DNA of 64,000 nucleotides from Cricetomys ansorgei (lineage: Eukaryota > Chordata > Mammalia > Rodentia > Nesomyidae): contig JAMJFZ010000199.1 of assembly GCA_026225945.1 (NCBI GenBank), positions 71,352,501 through 71,416,500 on the forward strand, given 5' to 3'. Position 1 is the stretch's first letter, and every line of letters begins with the position of its first letter. The position numbers and the translations under genes were made by a program. The notes below the pieces were generated by a model. The model ran no database searches. It saw only the letters and a list, made by a program, of their open reading frames with translations, and was not told the DNA's origin. This document shows, piece by piece, positions 12,831 to 46,959 of this stretch.

Positions 12831-15800
12831 ATGGGAAACCCAGCTTCAAGGCTTGGCTGCCTAGGGGAGAGGAGGAGCCGCACCAGCCCTAGGACCCACA
12901 CAAACCCCAGTACCCGAGGGGACCTCTCTCCATCTGCAGTTCCTCAGGGCCCACTTCCACCAGGGATCCCCTGGGTCTGGTGGGGCTCCTGTGCTGTCCA
13001 GGTGACAGAGATAACAGAGACAGTGGTGACAGAGACAGTGGTGACAGAAGCCGTGGAGATGGGGCCCTGCAGGCCAAGAGGACAGCCAGCCCAGGTGAGG
13101 CAGGACAGCTCTGGAGTGTGGGGAGTCTGAATGGAGGCCAGATGAGGTGAGTACGTCCTTCTTGCAGGCACCCCTAGCTCCCCTGGACATACTGTGCAGC
13201 TGGCTGGATGGAATGGAAGAACTTCAGGCCTCACAAGGACCCCTGGCTGCAGATGCCACTTTGGCTGCTTCCCAGCTACGAGAACAGGAGGTACAGTGCC
13301 AGGGGATAGGGACGAGTGGGGGTACTTTGTCCCCTGAGCCCCAGGTCAAGCCGCTGGCAAACAATGGTGGCCACCATGTGCTTGAACACAATAGAACTGG
13401 TCCCCCAGGGTGGGCTGAATGCATATTAATGTTAACAGTCCCATTGCCAGTGATCCTCCTTGATAAAAGGAGGGGGGCAGTGTGAGAGGATGGGCAGGGA
13501 CCCCAGAATCCTGCGTAAGCCCCTGACCTCACGTCTGGCAGCTGCTCCTGCGCCTGTTGAGGGAGCGTGCACCACACATGGAGCCAAGATTGCAAGAGGC
13601 TGGGAGCCCAGCAGAGCTGTGCACACAGTGGCACCGGCTGGTACAGCAGGCAGAGACCAGGTGAAGCCACAGGTGGGCCCATGAGGGTTCTAGGGCAGGA
13701 AGGCCACCACTGACACCTCCTCCATCTTTGCCCCAAGGTGGAGGCTCCTGGAACAGCTTGTCCCAGCAGCACAGAGTTTTGAAACAGCCTGCAAGGCTCT
13801 GCTGAAACAGCTGAGCCCAAGTGAACAGCTGCTGACTGAGCTACCGCTGGGGCCCAGGTGCCTTGAGGAATCTTTGCAGTCCCTCCAGGTATGGCCCAGG
13901 CTTGGGGTGGGAGTCCGTGTGCCGTCACAGGCTCAGTGTCTTGTGTTTGGTCACAGGAGGTGTGCGAGGGGGTTGTGGCATGTGCCAAGGACCTGGAAAG
14001 GGTTTTGGAGACTGGCCGGAGGCTGGCAGAGCTACTCACAGGTAAATGGACCTCAGCCCACTCAGTTGGCCACTCACCCCAGCTAAAATGTATTCAGGGC
14101 TCATATTTTGGGGTCACAGAAAAGACTGCCCTTACCCCAGCATAGACATCTGTATCATTTCCAAGGTACAAGTACCAGGCCCCAAGTCCAAGGCCTTAAT
14201 ATCTTTGTCCTGGTTGATGGTTCCCACGGACCCTTCTAATGCCCTCGTCCCTGTGACTGGTCTCCCGGTTCCCCTTTAATGTCAGTGTTTCCTCCTGGCT
14301 TCTTGCCTCTGGCTGCAGGTGACCAAGCTCAGCTGGTGCGACAGCAGCTGGATCAATTCCAGGAACGTGTGAGGCTGACTGAGTCACAAGTGGCCTGTGC
14401 CCAACAGAAGCTGCTCTATGGTCCAAGGACAGGGTTCTCCAAACCCTCAACACCAGCAGGCCTGGAGGTCCAGCTTGAACTGGAGCGGTCTGCTTCAGCA
14501 CATCCAGGGCTCAAGGATCAGCAGCAGGTGTTTGTACACCCTTGACTACACAAAAGAACCCCCTACCCCAACATACTTCACTCCCTCTGAGAGTCTGCAG
14601 CCCACTGTACCAGGGAGCTAGAGTGGCCGGAAGTACATAGCAAGGGCTTTCTGTCCCAGGCCAGGGCTGTCTAGAACAATGCCGGTTTCCTCCTGTAGCT
14701 GAGTATGCGGCTGTCCCAGCTGGCAGAGCGGCTCGAACAGCTGGCACAGTGGGCAGAGACTTCTAGTCAGGCGACAGCACCCACAGTGACCATCTGGGAA
14801 CAGAGCCTCTCATCAGGTACACCAGGGCCTTGGGGGTACCTGGGAGCGTTTGGGAGGTCACTGCCAGGCCTGCTTAAGAAGCCCAGGTGGAGTGAGTGTG
14901 AGGGTCTGGCCAAGGCTGGGTTCTCAGGTGGTCATATCTCTCCCTAGCCATGCTTCAGGCAGACACGAAGCCCCTGGAAGGACACTGGTCAGAGACTCGA
15001 GAGCAAGACACTGGGCTAAATGCCATATGGGAGCCAGCTGTGCAGATCTTGTGCGGCCTGGCAGAGCAGGCAGCCACCAAGGAGGAGCAGAGGCCTGAGG
15101 GTGACTGGAACTCAGCCTTGCAGGTGCCTTGAAAAACTAGGGGGAGGAAGGTCTCCCCAAGAGTTCCTTAGGAGGAGAGGCGGCCACAGGGACACTGGAC
15201 GATTAGGACACTCTGAGGATGAACTGTTGTTTGCTGGTAGAACTGAGGAAGACTCTGGGAGTGAAGAGACTGTAGCATCGGGGAACAGAAGTGGGGGCAG
15301 CAGAGCCAGTGGGAGGGATCTCTGGTGATGACTTCATGGCTCAGCTCCCAGCTTCTGACAGTCACAAATCTCCATTTAAGGCTAGTGCTCTCCCAGTGGG
15401 GTCAGAGCTTGAGCTCAGACCAGCCCTGACTGGTAGGCGAGAACAGCTTCTCTTTGGCCAGCACTGTCAAGCCTCTCAGCTGTACGGGCAGGGGTAGGGG
15501 CTGACGCACCTACACACCTTTTCTAGCAAGTAAAGAGTCCTTAATGAAGGTCAAAACATTGCTATGAGTGAGTCCCATTTGCTCAACAGCTGGAAAGAAA
15601 ATAGGTCAGGAGCAAGACAGAAATTTACTCACTTCTGATACATTGTCTGAGACTGTCCAGCATTTATTGTAACAAAGAGTCGAGAGTCTGGCCCTCCTTT
15701 CTGTAACACAGGAGTGGCTGGGATGCACGAGACCCTTCTTGAGGTTTGCTGTCCTCCTGGAAGCTCTAGGTTCCTTCGCTCATTTTCAGATTCCTCACTC

Positions 15801-18729
15801 ATTCTTGGGACTCCGAGGGTTTCCTGGGCCACTGGTTGTATGTGTGTGCACACACGTGTGTGGAGCACCCACAGAGACTAGAAGGCATCTGAGCTGGAGT
15901 TACAGGCAGGTGTGAGTTGCCTGACCTACCTACTGGATACTGAGCTAGGTCTTCTGCAAGACTAGCACATGCTCTTAACTGCTGAGCTATCTCTCCAGCC
16001 CACCACATTGTTTTATGAGTCAGAGTCTCTCTCCCTGAACCTAAACCTCTTATTTGTCTAGACTGGCTGGCCATCAAGTCCCAAGGATCTTACCTCTGTG
16101 TCCCTACTGCTGGGATTACTGGCATGGCTCCACATTGATTTGTTTTGTTTGTTTCTTTGTTTGTTCTTTGTTTGTTTTACATAGATTCTAGGGATCAAAT
16201 TCATATCCTCATGCTTTGCAGCAAACACTTGATCAACTCACTGAGCTGTCTTCCGGTCCCCTTCTTTTTAAGGGCAGCAGGCATATTGGTGCCCACATTC
16301 CGCTGTGAGCTCACCCTTCAGTTAGTTATACATGCAGCTGTGTCTTTCTGAGCAAAGGCTGGGACTTCAACATGGGAATGGGTGGTGGGTGGTGAACATG
16401 ATTCACCTACAGGGAGGATCTTGCTGGCTTTCTTCACCTTGCCCTGACCACACACACACAATGCTGGGGGCGACTGCCCTCCTCCCACCGAAGAGGTCTA
16501 GGGGTAGAAGGGCAGGGCCAGCATGCGTGACCCTCTTGCTGATGTTATGGCAGAGTGAGGCGTAGAGTGATTGGAGTAAGAAAGAGAGCTCAAGATGTGA
16601 GGTACATGGAGGAGAAAAGATTTCACCCTTCTGCTTTTGCCACCTGGAGAACCAGCAGTACCCCCAGGCTATTCTGCTGACAGGAGTCCCTGTGCGGACA
16701 GGAAACCCTAGCAGTGTCGTGGCTAAGGAGGAGAGGGGAGACTGTCTATGCGAGCACCTGCCACTTGGGCCTGCTGATGGATCTGCTGGGCTGCCAGTCT
16801 GCCATGTCTAGCTCCTCCTGTGAGAGGTGAGCCTGCTTGCAAGCTGTCCTCACTCCCCTCACACTGGCCCTCTACCCTGCTCACCTCTGTCCACCTCTTC
16901 TCCAGGATACACACTCTGGAAGGGATGCAGCTGCTTGTGGGCCACCTTGTAGAGGAGCTGGCCTTGTGCCCCCATATGCTGAGCCAGGCTGAACCCTCGA
17001 GGACCAAGGTAGGACCAGTGGCCAGAGGCTTTGGCCTGCACAATAACTGTGGACCAATCCAGGGTTAGCCCAGTGCCCTGGACCCACTGTCTTTGGGCCA
17101 CACCCTTTGTGAGACCATTTGACCTCTAGGAGAGCTGAGGGACCTAAAGTGCTGGGCAGGACCGCTCTGGTGGATGGGGGCATTGGCTCGGGAGAGGAGG
17201 TAGAGTGGTATGCAGTTTTAGGTATGGGGTCCTCCAGTTCCCTGACATTGTTCCCTAATACATAGGTGGTATACACCCATAGCTGGGTGCTGGAGGAGCT
17301 GCCTGGGGCCCTGAGCCTAAAGAACTGGACTCAAGCCCCAAGGGAAGTACTGACTCTGAGGCCGCCTGTGCATCTGGGGAGTGGAACTAAGGCTTGCCTC
17401 CTGGGGAAGATTCCAGAAGAACTCAGCAGGAGGCTGTGGTGGGCAGAGGTCATCATGGAGAACTGGAGTCACAGGAAGCCAAAGCACAGCAAAAGGAACC
17501 AGGAGGAAAGGGACCAGCGGGTACAACTGAAACAGGGCCGCCAAGAACAGGTAAGGGAACACAGGTACACACACTGTCCACTCTTGGGCTCATGAGAGGG
17601 ATTTGGCCTCAGCTCACAGCAAGAGGCCAGCCTCCACCTGGGTCTTGTGGGGACACTACCCATATTGCCTTGGTCATAGAATAAAGTGGTCTGGGGTGTG
17701 CCTCACACCCCAAGCCACAGGCAGCACTGAAACATTTCCCAGTAGGACCTTGTGGACAGCTTCCTGGCAGCCAGGGAGCAGGACAGGGATGGACAAGGCT
17801 GGCCTGGCCATACCTGGGGGAAATGTGGGCCTGACCACAAGCTCCCCACCGTGTTGGAGTCAGGGCTCCCCAATGGCCAGAAGCAGCCGCACAGCCTGGC
17901 CAGGGCAAGGAACACGGAAAGGACAAGTGCACCAGTGGCCAGAGGCAGGCCCAAGGTCCAGGGAGCCTCGGTGAGCAGGTGTGAGTGTGGGCCTGTAACA
18001 GTGGGGAGGACAGAGCCTCAGGAACTGCTCCCAACCCCCACCCACATAGAAGTCCTGACACACTTGTGCCCTGCAGGCAGCACGAGGCACCCTGATGGTC
18101 CGAGTTGGAGGTGGCTGGGCAGCTCTGGATGAATTTCTGGTCAAAAACGACCCAGTCAGAGGTGAGAGCTGGGGTAGGAAGAGACATGTAAGTCATCAGA
18201 GCCAGGGGGTGAGTCGTTAGGAAAGGTTTGGTATCCATTTTGGCTGGGCAACCTGGGATCTCTGAGCAGCACAGGGGAGGACCAGCCAGAAGATCCATGA
18301 AAGGTTCCTGTACTGGACATCCAGTGTGCCAGCCCCTGAAGTCCTCACCCTGAGGCTCTGGACCTCCATCCAAATGGGCTCTAGCAGACCCCAGTCTCAG
18401 AAGGTGAGAGCTGGGATGGGCTTCAGAGCCAGGTCCTCCGGGTGGGCTGAGGACCTTTTTTGGGGCCGGGTGGAGGAACTCGGTCATTGGGGTGAGGCCT
18501 GGCCACCCCTCCCAGACAGGCCTGTCAATTGGCAAAGAACACAGAGACCCCAGCTCCTACAAGGTCAAAGCCTCGGAGCAGCTCAATGAGGAGACCCAGT
18601 GAAGACACCAAGATCCAGCAGACAGGGACAGGAAATGGCAGCAGCGCAGGATCAAGGACTCAGCAGGAGCTGAGAGGACAAGGTCCCAGCACACAGGGCA
18701 GCCTTGTGGCTCTCACTCTCAAGGAATAA
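12831..18729 (+). CDS. Spectrin-repeat and partial GAS2-domain protein (orphan spectraplakin-like)
   Basis: I reconstruct 15 coding segments with matching phases and GT/AG junctions: 12831-13094, 13168-13290, 13542-13660, 13738-13888, 13957-14041, 14319-14527, 14699-14816, 14948-15123, 16684-16826, 16906-17008, 17266-17550, 17746-17970, 18077-18161, 18270-18403, 18520-18729. They sum to 809 codons plus stop. Residues about 89-360 form two to three spectrin-like helical repeats; the opening LDILCSWLDGMEELQASQGP resembles MACF1/dystonin repeats. Residues about 674-695 contain MVRVGGGWAALDEFLVKNDP, the hallmark end of the GAS2-related microtubule-binding domain, followed by a basic GRTS tail. 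EF-hands, actin-binding domain and plakin domain are absent. The start is chosen for its good Kozak context (accATGG); segment 1 may instead be two pieces, with an acceptor at 13001, and upstream exons cannot be excluded. The gene lies immediately 5' of epiplakin in the same orientation. It may be the orthologue of an uncharacterised rodent locus; no symbol is assigned. Confidence 0.75.
13002..13094 (+). other. Val-Thr-Glu repeat segment of the spectrin/GAR gene
   Basis: This 31-codon stretch has an acceptor-like tract just before it (gtgctgtccag), a strong donor after it (CAG/gtgagg) and phase 0 at both ends. It encodes ITETVVTETVVTEAVE, a short acidic repeat produced by a 15-bp DNA repeat (gtgacagagacagtg). 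The frame is also open upstream to ATG 12831, so either this is a separate internal exon or it is the end of the first coding exon. Confidence 0.5.
15835..16002 (-). repeat. B2/B3 SINE, antisense
   Basis: 'cacagagactagaaggc', 'ggagttacaggcaggtg' and 'tgctgagctatctctcc' mark a reverse-complemented B3-type element in an intron. Confidence 0.7.
16015..16262 (-). repeat. SINE remnants, B1/B4-like
   Basis: 'ctgggattactggcatgg' suggests a reverse B1-type element. 'tagggatcaaattcatat' followed by 'ctgagctgtcttccgg' suggests a reversed tRNA-derived (ID/B4) head. Both are strongly diverged. Confidence 0.35.
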
Positions 18730-25160: not shown

Positions 25161-25415
25161 CTGGGAAGGCTCTCTTAATAATCCCTCTTGAAGGAACTTG
25201 CAGGTCAGGGTCCCCCCCCACCACAATGAAGTTTGCTCATGACTTTGGAGGACCCTTGGCTACTATGCACCTCTGTGGCTGCTCAGGTGTCCTTCTGTCC
25301 TCATATTCAGGACTCATTCAGCTTAGAAGAATCTATGTCTGACCCCCATGATCATATCTTTCCCCCCGTTCCCAGCCACTCAGGATCCCTGACTGAGTCT
25401 TTCTGTCCCCTACAG

Positions 25416-28400
25416 GACACACAAGTGGACCTCAGGCAAGCTCTGCGCTACCAGTTGTCCGTGATGAATGGCCAGGTCCCTCCTCGTGATGCCGTGGTTG
25501 CCAATGGCACCGAGCAATCCATTGTCCCTAAAATTATGAAGTGCCAACTGGGAGCCAGCGCCACTTCCAGGCCTCAAACAGAGGCTGACCCGCCTACCAC
25601 AGCCAGAAGTATTGCTGGGGTGTACGTGGAGGCCTCAGGGCAGACCCAGAGCTTCTATGCTGCCATGAAGCAGGGCCTCCTGCCCACTGGGCTTGGGTTG
25701 GCTTTGCTTGAAGCCCAAGCAGCCACTGGGGGCCTCGTGGACCTTGCTCAGGGCCAGCTGCTTCCTGTGTCTGAGGCCCTTAGGCAGGGTCTCGTGGGAC
25801 TGGAGCTAAAGGAAAAAATGTTGGCTGCGGAGCGTGCAGTTACTGGCTATCCTGACCCCTATGGGGGTGGGAAGCTGGCCCTCTTCCAGGCCATCAAGAA
25901 GGAAGTTGTGGACAAGACCCTGGGGTGGAGATGGCTGGAGGTCCAGCTAGCTACTGGGGGCCCAGTGGACCCAACCCAGGGTGTGCAAGTGGCCCCGGAG
26001 CTAGGCTGCCAGCAGGGTCTTTTGGACAAGGAGACATGGCTTAGCCTGGTGGAGTCAGAGCCCAGCATGGGTGTCCCAGGTTTTTTTGATCCCAACACTC
26101 TGGAGCAGCTGTCCTACTGCAAGCTGTTGGGCAGGTGTGTGCGAGACCCCAGCTCAGGGCTGCCCCTGTTGCCCTTGAAGACAACCTTCCACACCCTGAA
26201 CGGAGCAGCCAGTGCAGCAATGCTGCTGGAGGCAGGAGTACTGGATGAAGAGACAGTCCGAGGCCTGCAGGAGGGCACACTGGTGGTGTCGGATGTGGGC
26301 ACACGCCCTGAGGTGCAGCGCTATCTGGAGGGCTTCGGTGGCTTGGCGGGGGTCATCTTGTTGCCTGGAGGCCACAAGAAGAGCTTCTTCCAGGCTTCAG
26401 TTGAACACTTGCTCTCAAAGGGCACTGCATTACAACTCTTAGAGGCTCAGGCCGCCACCCGCACTCTCGTGCACCCCACCACAAGCCAGCGTCTGTGGGT
26501 AGATGAGGCAGTCAGGGCAGGTCTGGTCGGCCCAGAACTCCATGAGCAGCTTCTGGTTGCAGAGAAGGCGGTGACTGGGTATTTTGACCCCTTCAGCAGC
26601 TCCCACATCCCCCTTTTTCAGGCTATGAAGAAGGAGCTCGTAGACCAGCCACTGGCTCTGCGTCTCCTGGACGCCCAGCTGGCCACAGGTGGGCTTATAT
26701 GCCCAGCCCGAAGATTCCGGTTACCACTGGAGGCTGCCTTGCGCTTTGGCTGCCTGGATGAAGAGACTCAGCAACATCTTTCTCAGGCAAAGGGCTTCTC
26801 AGATCCCACCTCACATGATAGTTTGAGCTATGAGCAGCTGCTGGCCCACTCTGTCACTGACCCAGAGACGGGGCTTGCTTTCCTGCCTCTCCCTGGAGAA
26901 CTCCATGCAAATGAGCCCCAGGGCCCCACATTGATTGATCATTGTACTAGGCAGGTCTTGAGCAAAGCCACCACCTCCATCTCAGTAGGAAGGTTCCAGG
27001 GACGGCCAGTATCCCTTTGGGAACTGCTCTTTTCTGAGCCAGTACCCATTAAGCAGAGGGCAATGCTTGTCCAGCAACACCAGAAAGGAGCCCTGTCAGT
27101 GGAGCAGCTGGCAGCTGAGCTGAAGGCCATTGTTGAGCAGGCTGCAGCCACTACCAAAGTCACCTTCGCTGGATTGAGGAACACTGTGACACCGGGAGAA
27201 TTGTTGAAGGCTGAAATAATCAACCAGGACCTGTTTGAGCAGCTGGAACGTGGACAGACCTCAGCCCAGGATGTGGGCAACCTGGAGTCAGTTCAGAGGT
27301 ACCTGCAGGGCACAGGTTGCATTGCAGGCCTACTGCTGTCTGACTCCCAAGAACGCCTCAGTATCTATGAGGCCCGTAGCAAGGGGCTCCTCAGGCCCGG
27401 TACTGCCCTGATCCTGCTTGAGGCCCAGGCTGCCACAGGTTTTATCATTGACCCAAAAGAGAATAAGAGATACTCTGTGGAGGAGGCACTGAAGGCTGGT
27501 GTCATTGGGCCTGATGTATATACAAAGCTGCTCTCTGCAGAATGTGCAGTCACTGGCTACACTGACCCTTACTCTGGGAAGCAGATCTCACTCTTCCAGG
27601 CCATGCAGAGGGACCTCATTGTTAAGGTCCATGGTATTCGCTTGCTGGAGGCCCAGATAGCCACAGGTGGTATCATTGACCCTGTACACAGCCACCGTGT
27701 ACCCGTAGACGTGGCCTACCAGCGTGGCTACTTTGACCAAATGCTGAACTCAATCCTGTTGGACCCATCTGATGACACCAAGGGCTTCTTTGACCCCAAC
27801 ACACATGAAAATCTCACCTACCTGCAGCTTCTGGAGCGCTGTGTACGTGACTCCAAGACTGGCTTGCACCTCCTGCCGCTTAGCAGTACACGACCCCAAC
27901 TGGTAGATAGCTCCACTCGACAAGCCTTTCAGAATCTACTGCTATCCGTGAGATATGGACGGTTTCGGGGGCAGAGAATTTCTGCATGGGAGCTGATTAA
28001 CTCAGAATACTTCAAAGAGGACTGGAGGAGGCAGCTACTGCGGCGTTACCAGCAGCGCAAGGTCACACTGGAGCAAGTCATGCAGCTGCTGGAGAAAGAG
28101 ATGAGGAGGTGGGCAGACATCACACTGCCTGCACTACGGGGCAGCGTCACTGCCTACCAGCTCCTAGAGGCCCATATCATCAACCAGGAGCTCTTGGACC
28201 AGGTGCTGGCAGGGACGGTCAGCCCAGATGCTCTCTTTCATAGGAGTGATGTTCACAGGTACCTTCAGGGCTCAGGCACTGTGGGTGGTGTGCTATTACA
28301 GCCCTCCAACCAGCAAATCAGTCTCTACCAGGCCATGAGGCAGAAGCTGCTGCCACCCGGTGTGGCCCTGGCCTTGCTGGAGGCCCAGGCAGCCACTGGA

Positions 28401-31400
28401 GCCATCACCGATCCCTACAGTATGGAGACCCTGTCAGTGGATGAGGCTGTGTGCAGGGGAGTGGTGGGAGCAGAGTTGTATAATAAGCTGAAACAAGCAG
28501 AGCATTCCATCACTGGCTTCAGAGATCCCTTTTCTGGAAAAAAGGTGTCCCTGTTCAGGGCCATGAAGAAGGGCCTTGTCCCTATGGAGCAGGCAACCCG
28601 CCTACTGGAGGCCCAGATGTCCACAGGAGGAGTTATTGATCCCACAATGCACCTCCACCTCCCCATTCCTGTGGCAGTTGAACGTGGCTGCATTGACCAA
28701 GAGATGGAGGTAGCCTTGTCCAGCTCTCCTGAGACCTTTCCCACACCTGATGGCCGGGGACATACTAGCTATGCTCGGCTTCTGGGCCAGTGTCTCCAGG
28801 ACAAGGCCTCTGGGCTTCACCTCCTGCCCCTGACAGAAGATGCTCCTGCTGTCCCCACTGACACACAGATCCAGGAGACCCTGCAAACATCAGCTGGCAC
28901 TGAGGATGGTCTGTCCCTCTGGGACTTGCTCACCTCTTGCTACTTTACTGAGGAACAACGCAAAGGTTTCCTTGAGGACCTGAGGGTAGGGAAGATTTCT
29001 GTGCCACAACTACAGGACACTGTGCGCAGCTGGGTGCACGCAGCAAAGCTCCTGGCTAGGGCCCACATCACGATGCCAGGTCCACGGGGTGAGGTCCCTG
29101 CCATTTGGCTACGAGATGCTGGTATCATCACCCAAGAGACACTGGAAGCGCTGGCTCAGGGCACGCGAATACCTGCTGAGGTAGCCGAAGAGCCTGCTGT
29201 GAAGGCCTGCCTCTGGGGCACAGGCTGTGTGGCCGGTGTGTTGCTACAGCCCTCAGGGACCAAGCTGAGTATTGCCCAGGCTGTAAGAGATGGCCTCCTG
29301 CCCACGGGCCTGGGCCAGCAGCTGCTGGAGGCCCAGGTGGCATCTGGCTTCCTTGTCAACCCACTAACCAACCAGAGATTGTCGGTGGAGGGTGCAGTAA
29401 AGGCCGGCCTGGTGGGCAGGGAGCTGAATGAACAGCTTAGGCAGGTGGAAAGGGCTGTTACAGGGTACACAGACCCCTACTCAGGGACCCCTCTCTCTCT
29501 ATGGCAAGCCATGGAGAAGGGGCTTGTACCTCAGAGTGAGGCCTTTCCTCTTCTGCAAGTCCAACTGGCCACGGGGGGTGTTGTGGACCCTTCCCATGGA
29601 GTACACCTGCCCCAGGCAGTGGCCTGCAAGCTCGGCCTCCTGGACGAGCAGACAAGCAGGGTGCTGACAACCACCGAGAAAGAAAACAAGCTCTTCTTTG
29701 ACCCTAACTCTCGTGAGAAGGTGACATACCAGCAGCTCAAGGAACTCTGTGTGCTGGATGCTGCCACTGGCCTGTGGCTGCTGCCACTGCCCCAGGACAC
29801 TGTGCTTGAGGTGGATGACCACACTGCAGTGGCACTGAGGGCTATGAAGGTGCCCATCAGCATGGGAAGGTTCCAAGGACACAGCGTGTCACTCTGGGAC
29901 CTGCTACACTCTGAGTACGTTGGAGCTGAAAAACGCCAAGAACTGGTGGCGCTTTGTTGTTCTGGGCGGGCTGCTGCCCTGCGGCAGGTCATAGGTATGG
30001 TCACCACCCTGGTGCAGGCTGCAGAGGAGCAGCCCCCACAGGCCACCTTCAAAGGGCTCCGGAAGCAGGTCTCAGCGGGGGACTTGTTTAGGTCCCAACT
30101 GATCAACAAGCAGACACTGGATGAGCTCAATCAGGGAAAGAGAACAGTCCAGGAAGTAACAGAGATGGATAGTGTGAAGAGGTCCCTGGAAGGAGGCAAC
30201 TTCATTGCTGGGGTCCTTATTCAGGGTACGAAAGAGAAGATGAGCATCCCAGAGGCCTTGAGAAGGCACATTCTGCGGCCAGGTACAGCCCTGGTGCTGC
30301 TGGAGGCACAGGCAGCCACAGGTTTCATCATCGACCCTGTGGAGAACCGGAAGCTAACTGTAGAGCAGGCATTCCAGGCAGGGATGTTTGGCAAGGAAAC
30401 CTACATGAAGCTGTTATCAGCAGAGCGTGCTGTCACAGGTTACACAGACCCTTACACTGGAGAACAGATCTCCCTCTTCCAGGCCATGAAGAAGGACCTC
30501 ATCGTCAGGGACCACGGCATCCGCCTGCTGGAGGCCCAGATCGCCACAGGTGGTATCATCGACCCTGTGCACAGCCACCGTGTGCCTGTGGATGTGGCCT
30601 ACCAGCATGGCTACTTTGACGAGGAGATGAACCGCATCTTGGCTGACCCGAGCGATGACACCAAGGGCTTCTTTGACCCCAACACACACGAGAACCTCAC
30701 CTACCTGCAGCTGCTGGAGCGCTGTGTGGAGGACCCCGAGACAGGCCTGTACATGTTAGAAATCGTAAAGAAGGGGGAAACCTACGTGTACATTGATGAG
30801 GCCACGAGGCAAGCTCTGAGATCCAGAACTATGAAAATGCATGTCGGGAAGTTTGCGGGCCAGACAGTGTCTGTGTGGGACCTGCTATCTTCTCAGTACT
30901 TTACAGAAGGAAGGAAAAGAAACCTTTTGCGGGAGTATAGAGCCCAGAACATAGACCTAGAAAAACTGCTGGAAGTTATCACTGCCACCATACAAGAAAC
31001 AGAGAAGAAAAATCAAACGCTCAAGGTGACAGGCATCCACGGCGACGTGACCGCTGCAGAGCTGTTCAACTCTGGGATCCTCGATAAGAAGACCCTGGAT
31101 GGATTTCACAATGGGGAAAGAGGGTGCCAAGACCTCAGGCAGCTGGAGCAAGTGAGCATCTGCCTGGAAGGTCGCAGTTGCATTGCTGGGGTAACTGCAC
31201 CTCTCACGAAGAAGGTAATGAGCATCTACGAGGCCAGCACAAAAGAACTCATCCCCGCAGGTTTTGCAGCTCAATTACTGGAGGCACAGGCTGCCACTGG
31301 CTACCTAATGGACCCACACATCCACCAGAGGCTGTGTGTGGATGAGGCAATAGCAGCTGGCCTAGTGGGTGAAGAGCTGAGAGAAAGGCTTGTGAATGCA

Positions 31401-34400
31401 GAGAGAGCAGCAAAGGGCTACAGAGATCCAGTCACAGGGGAGACGATCCCGCTGTTCCAGGCCATGGAGAAGAAGTTAGTTAAAAGGGAGGAGGCACTGA
31501 GGCTGCTGGAGGTGCAGGTGGCCACAGGGGGGGTCATTGATCCACTGCACCACCACTGAGTCCCTCTGGAAACAGCCTGCAGGCGTGGCTGTCTGTGTAA
31601 TGACTTGGTTGTACTCATTGCTGATCAGAAGCACATGAGGAAAAGGTTTGTGGATCCCAACACCCAAGAGAAGGTCACATACCAGGAGTTGCAGGATAGG
31701 TCCCAGAAGGAAGAGAAGACAGGCTGGGCTCTGTTCCCACTAGTCAAGGACACAAATGACATGGAGTATGTAGATGAGGTCACCAAAAGAGCCCTGGAGG
31801 CAGAGCAGGTGGAAGTCACTGTGGGGAGGTACAGAGGCCAGAAGCGATCAGTGTGGGAGTTGCTGAACTCAGAGTATGTTTCCGAGGAGAAAAAGATTGA
31901 GTTGGTTAGGATATACAAAGGCAACACAGATCAGGCACTACAGAAAGTGGTGAAAGTTATTATACAAATGATTGCAGAAAAGGAGAAGAAAAGCAGGCAA
32001 CTCTGGTTCCGAGGATTACGGAGTCAGGTCACAGCCGAAGAGTTACTCAGCTCAGCAGTCATCACAAGAGAGACTCTAGACGACCTCGAAGAAGGCAGAA
32101 CCACAGTAGACCAGATACAAAGAAATGAAAATGTAAAAAGATATCTAGAGGGGACCAGCTGCATCGCGGGCGTCCTGGTGCCCGTGCAGGGAGAGCCGGG
32201 CCGCCAGGAGAAGATGAGCATCTATCAGGCCATGTGGAAGGGCGTGCTGAGACCCGGCACGGCCCTGGTGCTGCTGGAGGCCCAGGCGGCCACCGGCTTC
32301 ATCATCGACCCGGTGCACAACCGCAGGCTGTCGGTGGAGGAGGCCGTGGCGGAGGGCGTGGTGGGCGGAGAGGTCCAGGAGAAGCTGCTGTCGGCCGAGC
32401 GGGCCGTCACCGGCTACACCGACCCCTACACCGGGGAGCAGATCTCCCTCTTCCAGGCCATGCGGAGGGACCTCATCGTCAGGGACCACGGCATCCGCCT
32501 GCTGGAGGCCCAGATCGCCACCGGCGGGGTCATCGACCCCGTGCACAGCCACCGCGTGCCCGTGGACGTGGCCTACCAGCGCGGCTACTTTGACGAGGAG
32601 ATGAACTGCGTGCTGTCCGACCCCGGGGACGACACCAAGGGCTTCTTTGACCCCAACACGCACGAGAACCTCACCTACCTGCAGCTGCTGCGTCGCTGCG
32701 TGCGCGACCCCGACACCGGCTTCTACATGCTGCAGCTGGCCGGGAAGGGCTCCACCGTGCACCAGCTGAGCGAGGAGCTCAGGCGGGCCCTGCGGGAAGC
32801 CCGCGTGACCCCCGGCACGGGCGACCTCCAGGGCCGGAGCGTCTCTGTCTGGGAGCTTCTCTTCTACCGCGAGGTGCCCGAGGGCCTGCGCCAGGACCTG
32901 CTGCGCCGGTACCAGGCGGGCGGGCTGACCGTCCAGGACCTGGGCACCACCCTCCTCTCGCTGCTGGCCCGGGCCGGGGAGGAGGGCCCGCGTGCGGATG
33001 CCCGAGGGGCCCTGGGCGAGGCCACCATGGAGGTGAGGGTGGGCCGCCTGCGCGGCCGCAGGGTGCCGGTCTGGGACGTCCTGACCTCCGGCTACGTCAG
33101 CGCGGACACCCGGAAGGAGCTGCTGGCCCAGTTCAGCGCTGGGACGCTGACCCTGCCCATGCTCACCCGGAGACTGACCACCATCATCGAGGAAGCCGAG
33201 GAGACCCAGGGGCCCAAGGAGCCCCGCACCGGGCCCGGGCCCGGGCCCGCGGAGGCCTCACTCAGCCAGCCGGACACCACCGGGGCCGGAGGCTCAGGGG
33301 GCGGCGGCCAGGCCGGGGACGGGGACGGGGACGGGGACGGCGCTGAGGCCGCCAGGCAGCGTCAGGAGCAGGCTCTGCGCGCTGCCACCATGCAGGTGCA
33401 GCGTGGGAAGCTGCGGGGCGCGCCTGTTTCCGTGTGGAAGGTCCTGTTCTCCTCCTACCTGAGTGAGACCCGCCGGGAGGAGCTCCTGGCCCAGCACTTG
33501 GCCGGCGCCCTGGGCCTCGCTGAGCTGACCGCCGTCCTCACCCAGATCATCGAGGAGACCGAGGAACGGCTCGGCAAGGTGTCCTTCCCCGGGCTGAGGC
33601 GCCAGGTGACTGCCTCTGAGCTGCACACGTCTGGGATCCTGGACCCCGACACCCTGCGGGAGCTGGCCCAAGGCACCAAGAGCCTGCAGGAGGTGACAGA
33701 GATGGACTCGGTCAAGCGCTACCTGGAGGGCACCAGCTGCATCGCGGGCGTCCTGGTGCCCGTGCAGGGAGAGCCGGGCCGCCAGGAGAAGATGAGCATC
33801 TATCAGGCCATGTGGAAGGGCGTGCTGAGACCCGGCACGGCCCTGGTGCTGCTGGAGGCCCAGGCGGCCACCGGCTTCATCATCGACCCGGTGCACAACC
33901 GCAGGCTGTCGGTGGAGGAGGCCGTGGCGGAGGGCGTGGTGGGCGGAGAGGTCCAGGAGAAGCTGCTGTCGGCCGAGCGGGCCGTCACCGGCTACACCGA
34001 CCCCTACACCGGGGAGCAGATCTCCCTCTTCCAGGCCATGCGGAGGGACCTCATCGTCAGGGACCACGGCATCCGCCTGCTGGAGGCCCAGATCGCCACC
34101 GGCGGGGTCATCGACCCCGTGCACAGCCACCGCGTGCCCGTGGACGTGGCCTACCAGCGCGGCTACTTTGACGAGGAGATGAACTGCGTGCTGTCCGACC
34201 CCGGGGACGACACCAAGGGCTTCTTTGACCCCAACACGCACGAGAACCTCACCTACCTGCAGCTGCTGCGTCGCTGCGTGCGCGACCCCGACACCGGCTT
34301 CTACATGCTGCAGCTGGCCGGGAAGGGCTCCACCGTGCACCAGCTGAGCGAGGAGCTCAGGCGGGCCCTGCGGGAAGCCCGCGTGACCCCCGGCACGGGC

Positions 34401-37400
34401 GACCTCCAGGGCCGGAGCGTCTCTGTCTGGGAGCTTCTCTTCTACCGCGAGGTGCCCGAGGGCCTGCGCCAGGACCTGCTGCGCCGGTACCAGGCGGGCG
34501 GGCTGACCGTCCAGGACCTGGGCACCACCCTCCTCTCGCTGCTGGCCCGGGCCGGGGAGGAGGGCCCGCGTGCGGATGCCCGAGGGGCCCTGGGCGAGGC
34601 CACCATGGAGGTGAGGGTGGGCCGCCTGCGCGGCCGCAGGGTGCCGGTCTGGGACGTCCTGACCTCCGGCTACGTCAGCGCGGACACCCGGAAGGAGCTG
34701 CTGGCCCAGTTCAGCGCTGGGACGCTGACCCTGCCCATGCTCACCCGGAGACTGACCACCATCATCGAGGAAGCCGAGGAGACCCAGGGGCCCAAGGAGC
34801 CCCGCACCGGGCCCGGGCCCGGGCCCGCGGAGGCCTCACTCAGCCAGCCGGACACCACCGGGGCCGGAGGCTCAGGGGGCGGCGGCCAGGCCGGGGACGG
34901 GGACGGGGACGGGGACGGCGCTGAGGCCGCCAGGCAGCGTCAGGAGCAGGCTCTGCGCGCTGCCACCATGCAGGTGCAGCGTGGGAAGCTGCGGGGCGCG
35001 CCTGTTTCCGTGTGGAAGGTCCTGTTCTCCTCCTACCTGAGTGAGACCCGCCGGGAGGAGCTCCTGGCCCAGCACTTGGCCGGCGCCCTGGGCCTCGCTG
35101 AGCTGACCGCCGTCCTCACCCAGATCATCGAGGAGACCGAGGAACGGCTCGGCAAGGTGTCCTTCCCCGGGCTGAGGCGCCAGGTGACTGCCTCTGAGCT
35201 GCACACGTCTGGGATCCTGGACCCCGACACCCTGCGGGAGCTGGCCCAAGGCACCAAGAGCCTGCAGGAGGTGACAGAGATGGACTCGGTCAAGCGCTAC
35301 CTGGAGGGCACCAGCTGCATCGCGGGCGTCCTGGTGCCCGTGCAGGGAGAGCCGGGCCGCCAGGAGAAGATGAGCATCTATCAGGCCATGTGGAAGGGCG
35401 TGCTGAGACCCGGCACGGCCCTGGTGCTGCTGGAGGCCCAGGCGGCCACCGGCTTCATCATCGACCCGGTGCACAACCGCAGGCTGTCGGTGGAGGAGGC
35501 CGTGGCGGAGGGCGTGGTGGGCGGAGAGGTCCAGGAGAAGCTGCTGTCGGCCGAGCGGGCCGTCACCGGCTACACCGACCCCTACACCGGGGAGCAGATC
35601 TCCCTCTTCCAGGCCATGCGGAGGGACCTCATCGTCAGGGACCACGGCATCCGCCTGCTGGAGGCCCAGATCGCCACCGGCGGGGTCATCGACCCCGTGC
35701 ACAGCCACCGCGTGCCCGTGGACGTGGCCTACCAGCGCGGCTACTTTGACGAGGAGATGAACTGCGTGCTGTCCGACCCCGGGGACGACACCAAGGGCTT
35801 CTTTGACCCCAACACGCACGAGAACCTCACCTACCTGCAGCTGCTGCGTCGCTGCGTGCGCGACCCCGACACCGGCTTCTACATGCTGCAGCTGGCCGGG
35901 AAGGGCTCCACCGTGCACCAGCTGAGCGAGGAGCTCAGGCGGGCCCTGCGGGAAGCCCGCGTGACCCCCGGCACGGGCGACCTCCAGGGCCGGAGCGTCT
36001 CTGTCTGGGAGCTTCTCTTCTACCGCGAGGTGCCCGAGGGCCTGCGCCAGGACCTGCTGCGCCGGTACCAGGCGGGCGGGCTGACCGTCCAGGACCTGGG
36101 CACCACCCTCCTCTCGCTGCTGGCCCGGGCCGGGGAGGAGGGCCCGCGTGCGGATGCCCGAGGGGCCCTGGGCGAGGCCACCATGGAGGTGAGGGTGGGC
36201 CGCCTGCGCGGCCGCAGGGTGCCGGTCTGGGACGTCCTGACCTCCGGCTACGTCAGCGCGGACACCCGGAAGGAGCTGCTGGCCCAGTTCAGCGCTGGGA
36301 CGCTGACCCTGCCCATGCTCACCCGGAGACTGACCACCATCATCGAGGAAGCCGAGGAGACCCAGGGGCCCAAGGAGCCCCGCACCGGGCCCGGGCCCGG
36401 GCCCGCGGAGGCCTCACTCAGCCAGCCGGACACCACCGGGGCCGGAGGCTCAGGGGGCGGCGGCCAGGCCGGGGACGGGGACGGGGACGGGGACGGCGCT
36501 GAGGCCGCCAGGCAGCGTCAGGAGCAGGCTCTGCGCGCTGCCACCATGCAGGTGCAGCGTGGGAAGCTGCGGGGCGCGCCTGTTTCCGTGTGGAAGGTCC
36601 TGTTCTCCTCCTACCTGAGTGAGACCCGCCGGGAGGAGCTCCTGGCCCAGCACTTGGCCGGCGCCCTGGGCCTCGCTGAGCTGACCGCCGTCCTCACCCA
36701 GATCATCGAGGAGACCGAGGAACGGCTCGGCAAGGTGTCCTTCCCCGGGCTGAGGCGCCAGGTGACTGCCTCTGAGCTGCACACGTCTGGGATCCTGGAC
36801 CCCGACACCCTGCGGGAGCTGGCCCAAGGCACCAAGAGCCTGCAGGAGGTGACAGAGATGGACTCGGTCAAGCGCTACCTGGAGGGCACCAGCTGCATCG
36901 CGGGCGTCCTGGTGCCCGTGCAGGGAGAGCCGGGCCGCCAGGAGAAGATGAGCATCTATCAGGCCATGTGGAAGGGCGTGCTGAGACCCGGCACGGCCCT
37001 GGTGCTGCTGGAGGCCCAGGCGGCCACCGGCTTCATCATCGACCCGGTGCACAACCGCAGGCTGTCGGTGGAGGAGGCCGTGGCGGAGGGCGTGGTGGGC
37101 GGAGAGGTCCAGGAGAAGCTGCTGTCGGCCGAGCGGGCCGTCACCGGCTACACCGACCCCTACACCGGGGAGCAGATCTCCCTCTTCCAGGCCATGCGGA
37201 GGGACCTCATCGTCAGGGACCACGGCATCCGCCTGCTGGAGGCCCAGATCGCCACCGGCGGGGTCATCGACCCCGTGCACAGCCACCGCGTGCCCGTGGA
37301 CGTGGCCTACCAGCGCGGCTACTTTGACGAGGAGATGAACTGCGTGCTGTCCGACCCCGGGGACGACACCAAGGGCTTCTTTGACCCCAACACGCACGAG

Positions 37401-40400
37401 AACCTCACCTACCTGCAGCTGCTGCGTCGCTGCGTGCGCGACCCCGACACCGGCTTCTACATGCTGCAGCTGGCCGGGAAGGGCTCCACCGTGCACCAGC
37501 TGAGCGAGGAGCTCAGGCGGGCCCTGCGGGAAGCCCGCGTGACCCCCGGCACGGGCGACCTCCAGGGCCGGAGCGTCTCTGTCTGGGAGCTTCTCTTCTA
37601 CCGCGAGGTGCCCGAGGGCCTGCGCCAGGACCTGCTGCGCCGGTACCAGGCGGGCGGGCTGACCGTCCAGGACCTGGGCACCACCCTCCTCTCGCTGCTG
37701 GCCCGGGCCGGGGAGGAGGGCCCGCGTGCGGATGCCCGAGGGGCCCTGGGCGAGGCCACCATGGAGGTGAGGGTGGGCCGCCTGCGCGGCCGCAGGGTGC
37801 CGGTCTGGGACGTCCTGACCTCCGGCTACGTCAGCGCGGACACCCGGAAGGAGCTGCTGGCCCAGTTCAGCGCTGGGACGCTGACCCTGCCCATGCTCAC
37901 CCGGAGACTGACCACCATCATCGAGGAAGCCGAGGAGACCCAGGGGCCCAAGGAGCCCCGCACCGGGCCCGGGCCCGGGCCCGCGGAGGCCTCACTCAGC
38001 CAGCCGGACACCACCGGGGCCGGAGGCTCAGGGGGCGGCGGCCAGGCCGGGGACGGGGACGGGGACGGGGACGGCGCTGAGGCCGCCAGGCAGCGTCAGG
38101 AGCAGGCTCTGCGCGCTGCCACCATGCAGGTGCAGCGTGGGAAGCTGCGGGGCGCGCCTGTTTCCGTGTGGAAGGTCCTGTTCTCCTCCTACCTGAGTGA
38201 GACCCGCCGGGAGGAGCTCCTGGCCCAGCACTTGGCCGGCGCCCTGGGCCTCGCTGAGCTGACCGCCGTCCTCACCCAGATCATCGAGGAGACCGAGGAA
38301 CGGCTCGGCAAGGTGTCCTTCCCCGGGCTGAGGCGCCAGGTGACTGCCTCTGAGCTGCACACGTCTGGGATCCTGGACCCCGACACCCTGCGGGAGCTGG
38401 CCCAAGGCACCAAGAGCCTGCAGGAGGTGACAGAGATGGACTCGGTCAAGCGCTACCTGGAGGGCACCAGCTGCATCGCGGGCGTCCTGGTGCCCGTGCA
38501 GGGAGAGCCGGGCCGCCAGGAGAAGATGAGCATCTATCAGGCCATGTGGAAGGGCGTGCTGAGACCCGGCACGGCCCTGGTGCTGCTGGAGGCCCAGGCG
38601 GCCACCGGCTTCATCATCGACCCGGTGCACAACCGCAGGCTGTCGGTGGAGGAGGCCGTGGCGGAGGGCGTGGTGGGCGGAGAGGTCCAGGAGAAGCTGC
38701 TGTCGGCCGAGCGGGCCGTCACCGGCTACACCGACCCCTACACCGGGGAGCAGATCTCCCTCTTCCAGGCCATGCGGAGGGACCTCATCGTCAGGGACCA
38801 CGGCATCCGCCTGCTGGAGGCCCAGATCGCCACCGGCGGGGTCATCGACCCCGTGCACAGCCACCGCGTGCCCGTGGACGTGGCCTACCAGCGCGGCTAC
38901 TTTGACGAGGAGATGAACTGCGTGCTGTCCGACCCCGGGGACGACACCAAGGGCTTCTTTGACCCCAACACGCACGAGAACCTCACCTACCTGCAGCTGC
39001 TGCGTCGCTGCGTGCGCGACCCCGACACCGGCTTCTACATGCTGCAGCTGGCCGGGAAGGGCTCCACCGTGCACCAGCTGAGCGAGGAGCTCAGGCGGGC
39101 CCTGCGGGAAGCCCGCGTGACCCCCGGCACGGGCGACCTCCAGGGCCGGAGCGTCTCTGTCTGGGAGCTTCTCTTCTACCGCGAGGTGCCCGAGGGCCTG
39201 CGCCAGGACCTGCTGCGCCGGTACCAGGCGGGCGGGCTGACCGTCCAGGACCTGGGCACCACCCTCCTCTCGCTGCTGGCCCGGGCCGGGGAGGAGGGCC
39301 CGCGTGCGGATGCCCGAGGGGCCCTGGGCGAGGCCACCATGGAGGTGAGGGTGGGCCGCCTGCGCGGCCGCAGGGTGCCGGTCTGGGACGTCCTGACCTC
39401 CGGCTACGTCAGCGCGGACACCCGGAAGGAGCTGCTGGCCCAGTTCAGCGCTGGGACGCTGACCCTGCCCATGCTCACCCGGAGACTGACCACCATCATC
39501 GAGGAAGCCGAGGAGACCCAGGGGCCCAAGGAGCCCCGCACCGGGCCCGGGCCCGGGCCCGCGGAGGCCTCACTCAGCCAGCCGGACACCACCGGGGCCG
39601 GAGGCTCAGGGGGCGGCGGCCAGGCCGGGGACGGGGACGGGGACGGGGACGGCGCTGAGGCCGCCAGGCAGCGTCAGGAGCAGGCTCTGCGCGCTGCCAC
39701 CATGCAGGTGCAGCGTGGGAAGCTGCGGGGCGCGCCTGTTTCCGTGTGGAAGGTCCTGTTCTCCTCCTACCTGAGTGAGACCCGCCGGGAGGAGCTCCTG
39801 GCCCAGCACTTGGCCGGCGCCCTGGGCCTCGCTGAGCTGACCGCCGTCCTCACCCAGATCATCGAGGAGACCGAGGAACGGCTCGGCAAGGTGTCCTTCC
39901 CCGGGCTGAGGCGCCAGGTGACTGCCTCTGAGCTGCACACGTCTGGGATCCTGGACCCCGACACCCTGCGGGAGCTGGCCCAAGGCACCAAGAGCCTGCA
40001 GGAGGTGACAGAGATGGACTCGGTCAAGCGCTACCTGGAGGGCACCAGCTGCATCGCGGGCGTCCTGGTGCCCGTGCAGGGAGAGCCGGGCCGCCAGGAG
40101 AAGATGAGCATCTATCAGGCCATGTGGAAGGGCGTGCTGAGACCCGGCACGGCCCTGGTGCTGCTGGAGGCCCAGGCGGCCACCGGCTTCATCATCGACC
40201 CGGTGCACAACCGCAGGCTGTCGGTGGAGGAGGCCGTGGCGGAGGGCGTGGTGGGCGGAGAGGTCCAGGAGAAGCTGCTGTCGGCCGAGCGGGCCGTCAC
40301 CGGCTACACCGACCCCTACACCGGGGAGCAGATCTCCCTCTTCCAGGCCATGCGGAGGGACCTCATCGTCAGGGACCACGGCATCCGCCTGCTGGAGGCC

Positions 40401-43400
40401 CAGATCGCCACCGGCGGGGTCATCGACCCCGTGCACAGCCACCGCGTGCCCGTGGACGTGGCCTACCAGCGCGGCTACTTTGACGAGGAGATGAACTGCG
40501 TGCTGTCCGACCCCGGGGACGACACCAAGGGCTTCTTTGACCCCAACACGCACGAGAACCTCACCTACCTGCAGCTGCTGCGTCGCTGCGTGCGCGACCC
40601 CGACACCGGCTTCTACATGCTGCAGCTGGCCGGGAAGGGCTCCACCGTGCACCAGCTGAGCGAGGAGCTCAGGCGGGCCCTGCGGGAAGCCCGCGTGACC
40701 CCCGGCACGGGCGACCTCCAGGGCCGGAGCGTCTCTGTCTGGGAGCTTCTCTTCTACCGCGAGGTGCCCGAGGGCCTGCGCCAGGACCTGCTGCGCCGGT
40801 ACCAGGCGGGCGGGCTGACCGTCCAGGACCTGGGCACCACCCTCCTCTCGCTGCTGGCCCGGGCCGGGGAGGAGGGCCCGCGTGCGGATGCCCGAGGGGC
40901 CCTGGGCGAGGCCACCATGGAGGTGAGGGTGGGCCGCCTGCGCGGCCGCAGGGTGCCGGTCTGGGACGTCCTGACCTCCGGCTACGTCAGCGCGGACACC
41001 CGGAAGGAGCTGCTGGCCCAGTTCAGCGCTGGGACGCTGACCCTGCCCATGCTCACCCGGAGACTGACCACCATCATCGAGGAAGCCGAGGAGACCCAGG
41101 GGCCCAAGGAGCCCCGCACCGGGCCCGGGCCCGGGCCCGCGGAGGCCTCACTCAGCCAGCCGGACACCACCGGGGCCGGAGGCTCAGGGGGCGGCGGCCA
41201 GGCCGGGGACGGGGACGGGGACGGGGACGGGGACGGCGCTGAGGCCGCCAGGCAGCGTCAGGAGCAGGCTCTGCGCGCTGCCACCATGCAGGTGCAGCGT
41301 GGGAAGCTGCGGGGCGCGCCTGTTTCCGTGTGGAAGGTCCTGTTCTCCTCCTACCTGAGTGAGACCCGCCGGGAGGAGCTCCTGGCCCAGCACTTGGCCG
41401 GCGCCCTGGGCCTCGCTGAGCTGACCGCCGTCCTCACCCAGATCATCGAGGAGACCGAGGAACGGCTCGGCAAGGTGTCCTTCCCCGGGCTGAGGCGCCA
41501 GGTGACTGCCTCTGAGCTGCACACGTCTGGGATCCTGGACCCCGACACCCTGCGGGAGCTGGCCCAAGGCACCAAGAGCCTGCAGGAGGTGACAGAGATG
41601 GACTCGGTCAAGCGCTACCTGGAGGGCACCAGCTGCATCGCGGGCGTCCTGGTGCCCGTGCAGGGAGAGCCGGGCCGCCAGGAGAAGATGAGCATCTATC
41701 AGGCCATGTGGAAGGGCGTGCTGAGACCCGGCACGGCCCTGGTGCTGCTGGAGGCCCAGGCGGCCACCGGCTTCATCATCGACCCGGTGCACAACCGCAG
41801 GCTGTCGGTGGAGGAGGCCGTGGCGGAGGGCGTGGTGGGCGGAGAGGTCCAGGAGAAGCTGCTGTCGGCCGAGCGGGCCGTCACCGGCTACACCGACCCC
41901 TACACCGGGGAGCAGATCTCCCTCTTCCAGGCCATGCGGAGGGACCTCATCGTCAGGGACCACGGCATCCGCCTGCTGGAGGCCCAGATCGCCACCGGCG
42001 GGGTCATCGACCCCGTGCACAGCCACCGCGTGCCCGTGGACGTGGCCTACCAGCGCGGCTACTTTGACGAGGAGATGAACTGCGTGCTGTCCGACCCCGG
42101 GGACGACACCAAGGGCTTCTTTGACCCCAACACGCACGAGAACCTCACCTACCTGCAGCTGCTGCGTCGCTGCGTGCGCGACCCCGACACCGGCTTCTAC
42201 ATGCTGCAGCTGGCCGGGAAGGGCTCCACCGTGCACCAGCTGAGCGAGGAGCTCAGGCGGGCCCTGCGGGAAGCCCGCGTGACCCCCGGCACGGGCGACC
42301 TCCAGGGCCGGAGCGTCTCTGTCTGGGAGCTTCTCTTCTACCGCGAGGTGCCCGAGGGCCTGCGCCAGGACCTGCTGCGCCGGTACCAGGCGGGCGGGCT
42401 GACCGTCCAGGACCTGGGCACCACCCTCCTCTCGCTGCTGGCCCGGGCCGGGGAGGAGGGCCCGCGTGCGGATGCCCGAGGGGCCCTGGGCGAGGCCACC
42501 ATGGAGGTGAGGGTGGGCCGCCTGCGCGGCCGCAGGGTGCCGGTCTGGGACGTCCTGACCTCCGGCTACGTCAGCGCGGACACCCGGAAGGAGCTGCTGG
42601 CCCAGTTCAGCGCTGGGACGCTGACCCTGCCCATGCTCACCCGGAGACTGACCACCATCATCGAGGAAGCCGAGGAGACCCAGGGGCCCAAGGAGCCCCG
42701 CACCGGGCCCGGGCCCGGGCCCGCGGAGGCCTCACTCAGCCAGCCGGACACCACCGGGGCCGGAGGCTCAGGGGGCGGCGGCCAGGCCGGGGACGGGGAC
42801 GGGGACGGGGACGGCGCTGAGGCCGCCAGGCAGCGTCAGGAGCAGGCTCTGCGCGCTGCCACCATGCAGGTGCAGCGTGGGAAGCTGCGGGGCGCGCCTG
42901 TTTCCGTGTGGAAGGTCCTGTTCTCCTCCTACCTGAGTGAGACCCGCCGGGAGGAGCTCCTGGCCCAGCACTTGGCCGGCGCCCTGGGCCTCGCTGAGCT
43001 GACCGCCGTCCTCACCCAGATCATCGAGGAGACCGAGGAACGGCTCGGCAAGGTGTCCTTCCCCGGGCTGAGGCGCCAGGTGACTGCCTCTGAGCTGCAC
43101 ACGTCTGGGATCCTGGACCCCGACACCCTGCGGGAGCTGGCCCAAGGCACCAAGAGCCTGCAGGAGGTGACAGAGATGGACTCGGTCAAGCGCTACCTGG
43201 AGGGCACCAGCTGCATCGCGGGCGTCCTGATGCCCGTGCAGGGAGAGCCGGGCCGCCAGGGAGAAGATGAGCATCTATCAGGCCATGTGGAAGGGCGTGC
43301 TGAGACCCGGCACGGCCCTGGTGCTGCTGGAGGCCCAGGCGGCCACCGGCTTCATCATCGACCCGGTGCACAACCGCAGGCTGTCGGTGGAGGAGGCCGT

Positions 43401-46400: not shown

Positions 46401-46959
46401 AGAGCCGGGCCGCCAGGAGAAGATGAGCATCTATCAGGCCATGTGGAAGGGCGTGCTGAGACCCGGCACGGCCCTGGTGCTGCTGGAGGCCCAGGCGGCC
46501 ACCGGCTTCATCATCGACCCGGTGCACAACCGCAGGCTGTCGGTGGAGGAGGCCGTGGCGGAGGGCGTGGTGGGCGGAGAGGTCCAGGAGAAGCTGCTGT
46601 CGGCCGAGCGGGCCGTCACCGGCTACACCGACCCCTACACCGGGGAGCAGATCTCCCTCTTCCAGGCCATGCGGAGGGACCTCATCGTCAGGGACCACGG
46701 CATCCGCCTGCTGGAGGCCCAGATCGCCACCGGCGGGGTCATCGACCCCGTGCACAGCCACCGGGTGCCCGTGGACGTGGCCTACCAACGTGGGTTCTTT
46801 GATGAGGAGATGAACAGGATTTTGGCTGATCCCAGCGACGACACCAAGGGCTTCTTTGACCCCAACACACATGAGAACCTTACGTACCTTCAGCTATTGC
46901 AGAGAGCAACACTTGACCCTGAGACTGGATTGTTGTTTCTCTCCCTCTCTAAGGGCTGA
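25416..46959 (+). CDS. Eppk1: Epiplakin, giant single coding exon (frame interrupted twice)
   Basis: A cytolinker made only of plakin repeat domains (PRDs); the family binds keratins, vimentin and other intermediate filaments in epithelia and protects keratin networks under stress. The exon starts after the acceptor at 25415. I place the start at ATG 25464 (MNGQVPP), which aligns with the known epiplakin N-terminus. Seven diverged PRDs begin at about 25608, 26341, 27318, 28278, 29226, 30201 and 31180, followed by ten almost identical ones from about 32160 to the end: 17 in total. Each PRD carries words such as [15 protein letters not shown] and [14 protein letters not shown]. Linkers contain the SVWELL module. 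There is no actin-binding domain, plakin domain or rod, as expected for epiplakin. The frame has an in-frame TGA at 31557-31559 and an extra G at 43259-43261. As written, translation from 25464 stops after 2,031 residues, within PRD7; corrected for both, it is 7,164 residues. The true stop is TGA 46957-46959. Both breaks may be assembly errors, a real allele or decay. Confidence 0.93.
31557..31559 (+). other. In-frame TGA interrupting epiplakin
   Basis: The frame reads His-His-His-TGA-Val-Pro-Leu-Glu and continues open in the same frame for 12 kb. Paralogous positions in other PRDs read [10 protein letters not shown], so Arg is expected. CGA to TGA is a single CpG transition. Homology continues without a gap on the other side, so this is one substitution, not a deletion or intron. 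Confidence 0.9.
41203..41236 (+). repeat. GGGGAC hexanucleotide expansion in unit 6
   Basis: The linker of unit 6 has five GGGGAC copies where the other units have four, adding one Gly-Asp pair to an acidic GDGDGDGDG stretch. It keeps the frame. Confidence 0.9.
43259..43261 (+). other. Extra G causing a +1 frameshift in epiplakin unit 8
   Basis: Unit 8 reads gccaGGGagaagatg, while all other units read gccaGGagaagatg. The frame before this point runs on to an alternative-frame stop at 43644-43646; the true frame reopens at 43267 and continues to 46959. A unit-specific G-to-A (Val to Met) lies 30 bp upstream at 43230, so both unusual bases cluster in one small patch of an otherwise identical array. 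Confidence 0.92.

Follow-up and report, generated by a model that had tools for sequence, protein, structure and literature searches.

A candidate placental orthologue of the spectraplakin tail gene MACF1CTL between plectin and epiplakin in Cricetomys ansorgei

MACF1CTL is a spectraplakin tail gene reported between plectin and epiplakin in non-placental jawed vertebrates; the 2022 paper on it states that placental mammals lost the gene, with cetaceans and humans as its named cases (PMC8782857). Cryo-electron microscopy of the GAS2 GAR domain on microtubules has shown that binding is made by β3-β4-β5-α2 (PMC12084551). We analysed a gene in a 64,000-nucleotide window of the Cricetomys ansorgei genome (assembly GCA_026225945.1, contig JAMJFZ010000199.1, here C1096, positions 71,352,501 to 71,416,500, forward strand). 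From sequence comparison we consider this gene likely to be an eroded placental orthologue of MACF1CTL. The overall explanation that we prefer, with moderate confidence, is an eroded orthologue with a predicted lipidated start and a retained GAR half that bears the tubulin contacts. An initial annotation had proposed an orphan spectraplakin tail beside epiplakin, which was right in substance: the order plectin (PLEC), gene, epiplakin (EPPK1), all on one strand, was confirmed in the assembly.

The gene lies on the plus strand at 12831–18602 (start at C1096:71365331) and comprises 15 exons encoding 768 amino acids. GT-AG boundaries mark all 14 introns, and the exons join into one uninterrupted frame that ends in a stop codon at 18600–18602. 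Together with a downstream AATAAA and full-length alignments of orthologues, these features bear out the fifteen phase-consistent coding segments initially described, and we regard the exon chain as real because it is supported by homology to orthologous proteins. The original length of 809 residues was corrected with exon 9 placed at 16684–16826, its 5′ boundary being picked by reading frame and AG acceptor; an exon 9 start at 16656 breaks the frame and was dropped. The features are as follows.

12831..13094, plus strand: exon 1, with the start codon, the MGNPASRLGCLG motif and the Thr/Glu-rich VTEITETVVTETVVTEAVE; start and motif are common to orthologues
13168..13290, plus strand: exon 2, in which the first predicted spectrin repeat begins
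13542..13660, plus strand: exon 3, predicted spectrin repeat 1
13738..13888, plus strand: exon 4, predicted repeats 1–2, with a long helix common to both
13957..14041, plus strand: exon 5, predicted spectrin repeat 2
14319..14527, plus strand: exon 6, where predicted repeat 2 ends and the linker begins
14699..14816, plus strand: exon 7, linker helix, model confidence low to middling
14948..15123, plus strand: exon 8, model confidence low
16684..16826, plus strand: exon 9, set by reading frame and AG acceptor
16906..17008, plus strand: exon 10; exons 9 and 10 together resemble a spectrin-repeat helix of non-placental relatives (hhalign)
17266..17550, plus strand: exon 11, fast-evolving, model confidence low
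17746..17970, plus strand: exon 12, fast-evolving, model confidence low
18077..18161, plus strand: exon 13, second half of GAS2 (MVRVGGGW..LVKNDP; PF02187 positions 43–69; MACF1 GAR structures 5x57 and 5ve9)
18270..18403, plus strand: exon 14, post-GAS2 GRTSQKIHERF, similar to non-placental relatives
18516..18602, plus strand: exon 15, stop codon included
18724..18729, plus strand: AATAAA polyadenylation signal, read from the sequence

The best relative of the encoded protein is a 774-residue hamster (Cricetulus) protein named cDNA sequence BC024139 (P0001), with 81% identity over 100% of the query. Eight muroid records of 767–795 amino acids align over 100% of the window protein at 76–81% identity, far beyond chance, and three more distant rodents align end to end at 59–70%. 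BC024139 of Mus pahari (P0008) reaches 76% over 100%, and the partial mouse record (P0015) 76% over 77%. Full-length similarity and a shared start motif make it very likely that the gene is the BC024139 orthologue, in identity and in anatomy. The protein search covered about 5.8 billion proteins, and scoring the 7995 best candidates by shared words yielded 35 relatives; a profile search added two fragments and a search with the GAS2 region two alpaca records, giving 39 placental-type records that include several isoforms of single species. Twenty-five are rodent-named (muroids, blind mole rat, jerboa, beaver, chinchilla, degu and naked mole rat), eight come from camelids and five from phyllostomid bats, with one further record. 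No primate, carnivore or bovid appeared among the 39 in these searches, which were bounded by candidate number and length.

The GAS2-region search, in which proteins longer than 1758 residues could not appear, also returned 56 non-placental relatives of MACF1CTL type, including caecilian, koala, possum and chicken. Pfam found EF hands and a full GAS2 domain (positions 1–69) in all five of these that were scanned. In the window protein, Pfam gave no match to an actin-binding, plakin or EF-hand domain at thresholds up to E 10, in agreement with the initial annotation. The GAS2-type C-terminal motif described there is present, but as a half only, which had gone unremarked: Pfam PF02187 matches at profile positions 43–69 of 69. 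The match to the GAS2 protein itself is much weaker than that to MACF1 (E 0.26–0.27 versus 3.1e-9). As for the spectrin-like repeats, Pfam gave none in the window protein up to E 10, an outcome named beforehand as counting against them, and its spectrin model was reached by 3 of 17 orthologues (best E 1.3). The predicted structure of the hamster orthologue nevertheless resembles two tandem spectrin repeats, with fold scores near those of unrelated helical bundles; on this model, the gene probably kept two repeats.

Searches for the missing parts gave nothing above noise. By tblastn with the 56 whole non-placental relatives (E ≤ 1), no EF or GAS2-N remnant rose above antisense matches. Segments of eight of these relatives, searched against 12.5–20 kb at E ≤ 20, gave a best plus-strand match of 0.38 versus 0.05 antisense for EF/GAS2-N and of 0.082 versus 0.081 for an extra spectrin remnant. 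When the intervals on either side of the gene, up to plectin and up to epiplakin, were compared with the 56 relatives, seven matches appeared at E ≤ 0.5, six of them antisense (5 kb of Ns, L012 5001–10000, lay outside this search). The first GAR half is marked by a CxC pattern (C.C.{2,4}[FR]); sought in the 60 residues ahead of the second half, it occurs in 0 of the 32 records that have this second half; QC.C is present in 50 of the 56 non-placental records, and five more read [KE]CNC by eye. By these comparisons, the gene has lost its EF hands together with the first half of GAS2 (GAR), which binds zinc.

Descent was assessed from what remains. When 17 placental and 23 non-placental sequences were aligned by hhalign, probability reached 99.3 over the GAS2 half and the following tail; the signal over the spectrin region was weak (25 and 17), and the exon 9–10 segment scored 73 alone and 18.6 within residues 1–672. 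In the C. ansorgei loci that we take to be MACF1 and DST, the GAS2 exon has an open frame from FGDSQQ to NDPCR that runs on into the intron, in the same phase as in the gene. Exon 13 keeps the NDP end without approximately the first 11 residues of that exon, and for the MACF1 exon that carries the CxC of the first GAR half we found no counterpart in the gene. Six positions separate MACF1/DST from the non-placental group (81 rows, after 10 records with missing or shifted segments were dropped; records without the segment were not entered). The gene has the non-placental residue at three, including KI instead of EL after GRT, the MACF1/DST residue at one and neither at two, and some orthologues differ from it at these positions.

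The non-placental records are themselves varied. Marsupial relatives P0049 and P0051 have EF hands and a whole GAS2 domain with little spectrin array in their gene models (P0049 by precomputed domains only), as if the gene had eroded stepwise in mammals. The chicken relative P0062 is named Epiplakin 1 by its source though it has spectrin, EF-hand and GAS2 domains, perhaps a misnaming since both genes are neighbours.

At the N terminus, the start MGN[PRW][AV]S[RG]LGCLG is common to the window protein and 26 of the 39 placental-type records: 21 of 25 rodent-named and all five bat records have it, and the one further record lacks it. Among the rodents, the four records that lack this start are either fragmentary or modelled from a different one. 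None of the 56 non-placental records, many of them incomplete, has MGN..S. The N-myristoyltransferase consensus calls for Gly2 and restricts the residues that follow it, and by this consensus the N terminus is a predicted candidate for myristoylation and palmitoylation. This conserved, lipidation-like start was missed in the initial annotation, though it is present in exon 1 and in orthologues. Exon 1 also holds a Thr/Glu-rich motif (13002–13058) that reads VTEVTETVVTETVVTEAVE in most relatives and is nearly invariant where the exon is present; in the 56 non-placental records, P0073 alone has a VVTE, by chance. No solved structure matched the first 91 residues of P0001 at E ≤ 10, and we found no paper that combines spectrin repeat, GAS2 domain and N-myristoylation.

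At the other end, the retained GAR half can be compared with measured mutants. Binding of GAS2-GAR to microtubules weakens from 0.69 µM in the wild type to ~47 µM in R252E, ~27 µM in W257E, ~10.6 µM in K266E, 2.69 and 9.6 µM in G255A and G255E, and ~5 µM in R242E (PMC12084551). Both the window protein and 32 of the 39 placental-type records keep counterparts of R252, three glycines including G255, W257 and K266, a count that is favoured because some records were found by the GAR-half segment itself; the remaining seven comprise fragments, isoforms that lack the segment and camelid models read in a different frame. Counting back places the counterparts of R242 and K237 ahead of exon 13, in the part that is gone. 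The tubulin-binding residues of largest effect thus sit in the half that remains. This segment is more conserved than residues 291–667 in all 10 orthologues compared, out of 21 aligned, and the first 12 residues are so in 9 of 10 at p < 0.05, in a comparison that differs from a dN/dS test and uses regions chosen after inspection and rows that share ancestry. Such uneven conservation argues for selection on both ends of the protein.

In the explanation that we prefer, the lipidated N terminus would tether the protein to a membrane, with the spectrin repeats as a spacer or partner platform; the flexible linker would reach outward, and the G-hairpin/α2 remnant near the C terminus would make a weak microtubule contact. 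We offer membrane-anchored microtubule contact as a hypothesis, and rate the contact mechanism itself as tentative, on the unlikely side. The microtubule or cytolinker role suggested in the initial annotation is likewise hypothetical. More doubtful still is the wider proposal that some placentals turned plectin's ancestral tail gene into a lipid-anchored, minimal, zinc-less microtubule contact, with selection keeping only the G-hairpin half of GAR behind two spectrin repeats. Zinc holds the GAR fold together, and mutations in the zinc motif of MACF1 disrupt binding (PMC12084551); with the CxC pattern missing from every record that has the second half, the protein might instead be a lipidated spectrin-repeat membrane adaptor whose GAR remnant serves another partner, off microtubules. 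Such an adaptor sits poorly with the retention of counterparts of the residues that weighed most in the tubulin-binding measurements, and we give it about the same doubtful standing as the wider proposal.

Several observations weigh against an eroded but functional MACF1CTL orthologue. The camelid gene models differ among themselves and lack the MGN start (0 of 8). A 53.7 kb contig, C3220, holds a second, near-identical version of the gene along with parts of epiplakin. A stretch of it aligned over 9658 columns is 99.74% identical, the differences being 6 mismatches and 17 gap openings, and the gaps fall in exons 3, 4 and 6; this contig is likely an alternate haplotype with sequencing errors. 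A tree of a 40-residue segment, with few columns, is compatible with a MACF1/DST origin (p-AU 0.383), so orthology to MACF1CTL rests mainly on position and the three diagnostic residues. The camelid models and the C3220 gaps would suit a decaying relic, a frame that persists in some lineages and encodes a protein with little or no function, as would the loss of whole domains, the poor conservation of exons 11–12 in more distant records and the reported absence of the gene in placentals. Yet all 15 exons keep an open frame, eleven rodents have records that align end to end, the start and GAR half are near-invariant in an unevenly conserved protein, and BC024139, there called a GAR domain-containing protein, is among the cytoskeletal genes reported as more up-regulated in male injured nerve (PMC9378824); we judge a relic unlikely. 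The tree and the one MACF1/DST-like residue are also compatible with a later, independent duplication of a MACF1 or DST tail into the plectin–epiplakin gap. That origin seems quite improbable given a place and strand as reported for MACF1CTL (PMC8782857) and the match to non-placental rows at half of the diagnostic positions.

The neighbours were named from their repeats and order. A plakin-repeat frame 39 kb upstream on the same strand, with a GSR-type tail and a stop at C1096:71326107–71326109, is read as plectin, and the plakin-repeat gene downstream is read as epiplakin:

25233..46959, plus strand: epiplakin (EPPK1) coding region, three open frames, of which the two outer ones were scanned and hold Plectin repeats (PF00681)

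The epiplakin frame meets an in-frame stop at 31557–31559 after ~2,100 codons and is then open again for ~4,000 codons; 501 bases around this stop are identical in C3220, stop included. Between 32000 and 46900, near-identical repeat units form an array with a spacing of 1,578 bases, and the frame changes between ~43.2 and 43.6 kb, a possible collapse or assembly error. Downstream of epiplakin, the piece at 57904–58386, to which Pfam gave no family, presumably resembles NRBP2.

The initial annotation knew of no functional description of such a protein. MACF1CTL had been named (PMC8782857) and the gene is annotated as BC024139 in hamster and mouse, but none of the passages found that name BC024139 is a functional study. 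The gene is up in erinacine-treated glial cultures under the label regulation of focal adhesion assembly (PMC11652784) and appears in a gene list (PMC11481374); among the main texts searched, no paper names both BC024139 and MACF1CTL. If our explanation is true, the published loss of MACF1CTL in placentals fails for rodents, some bats and camelids. The mouse gene BC024139 would then offer a direct route to the idea of one ancestral spectraplakin behind plectin and the tail, and would further serve to test whether half of a GAR domain can still contact microtubules.

Compared with known systems, the gene shows no architectural difference from BC024139 of hamster, mouse and Mus pahari. It resembles MACF1CTL in position, strand, GAS2 remnant, post-GAS2 GRT.KI segment and probably spectrin repeats, but differs in its lack of EF hands, half GAS2 domain, MGN..S.LGC start, divergent linker and placental host. 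With the MACF1 and dystonin tails it shares the place and phase of the intron 3′ of the GAS2 exon, whereas MACF1 has EF hands and a whole GAR, and both proteins read GRTN.ELREKF after GAR where the window gene reads GRTSQKIHERF. GAS2 itself shares the residues of the GAR G-hairpin, but in that protein they belong to a whole GAR that is accompanied by a CH3 domain (PMC12084551).
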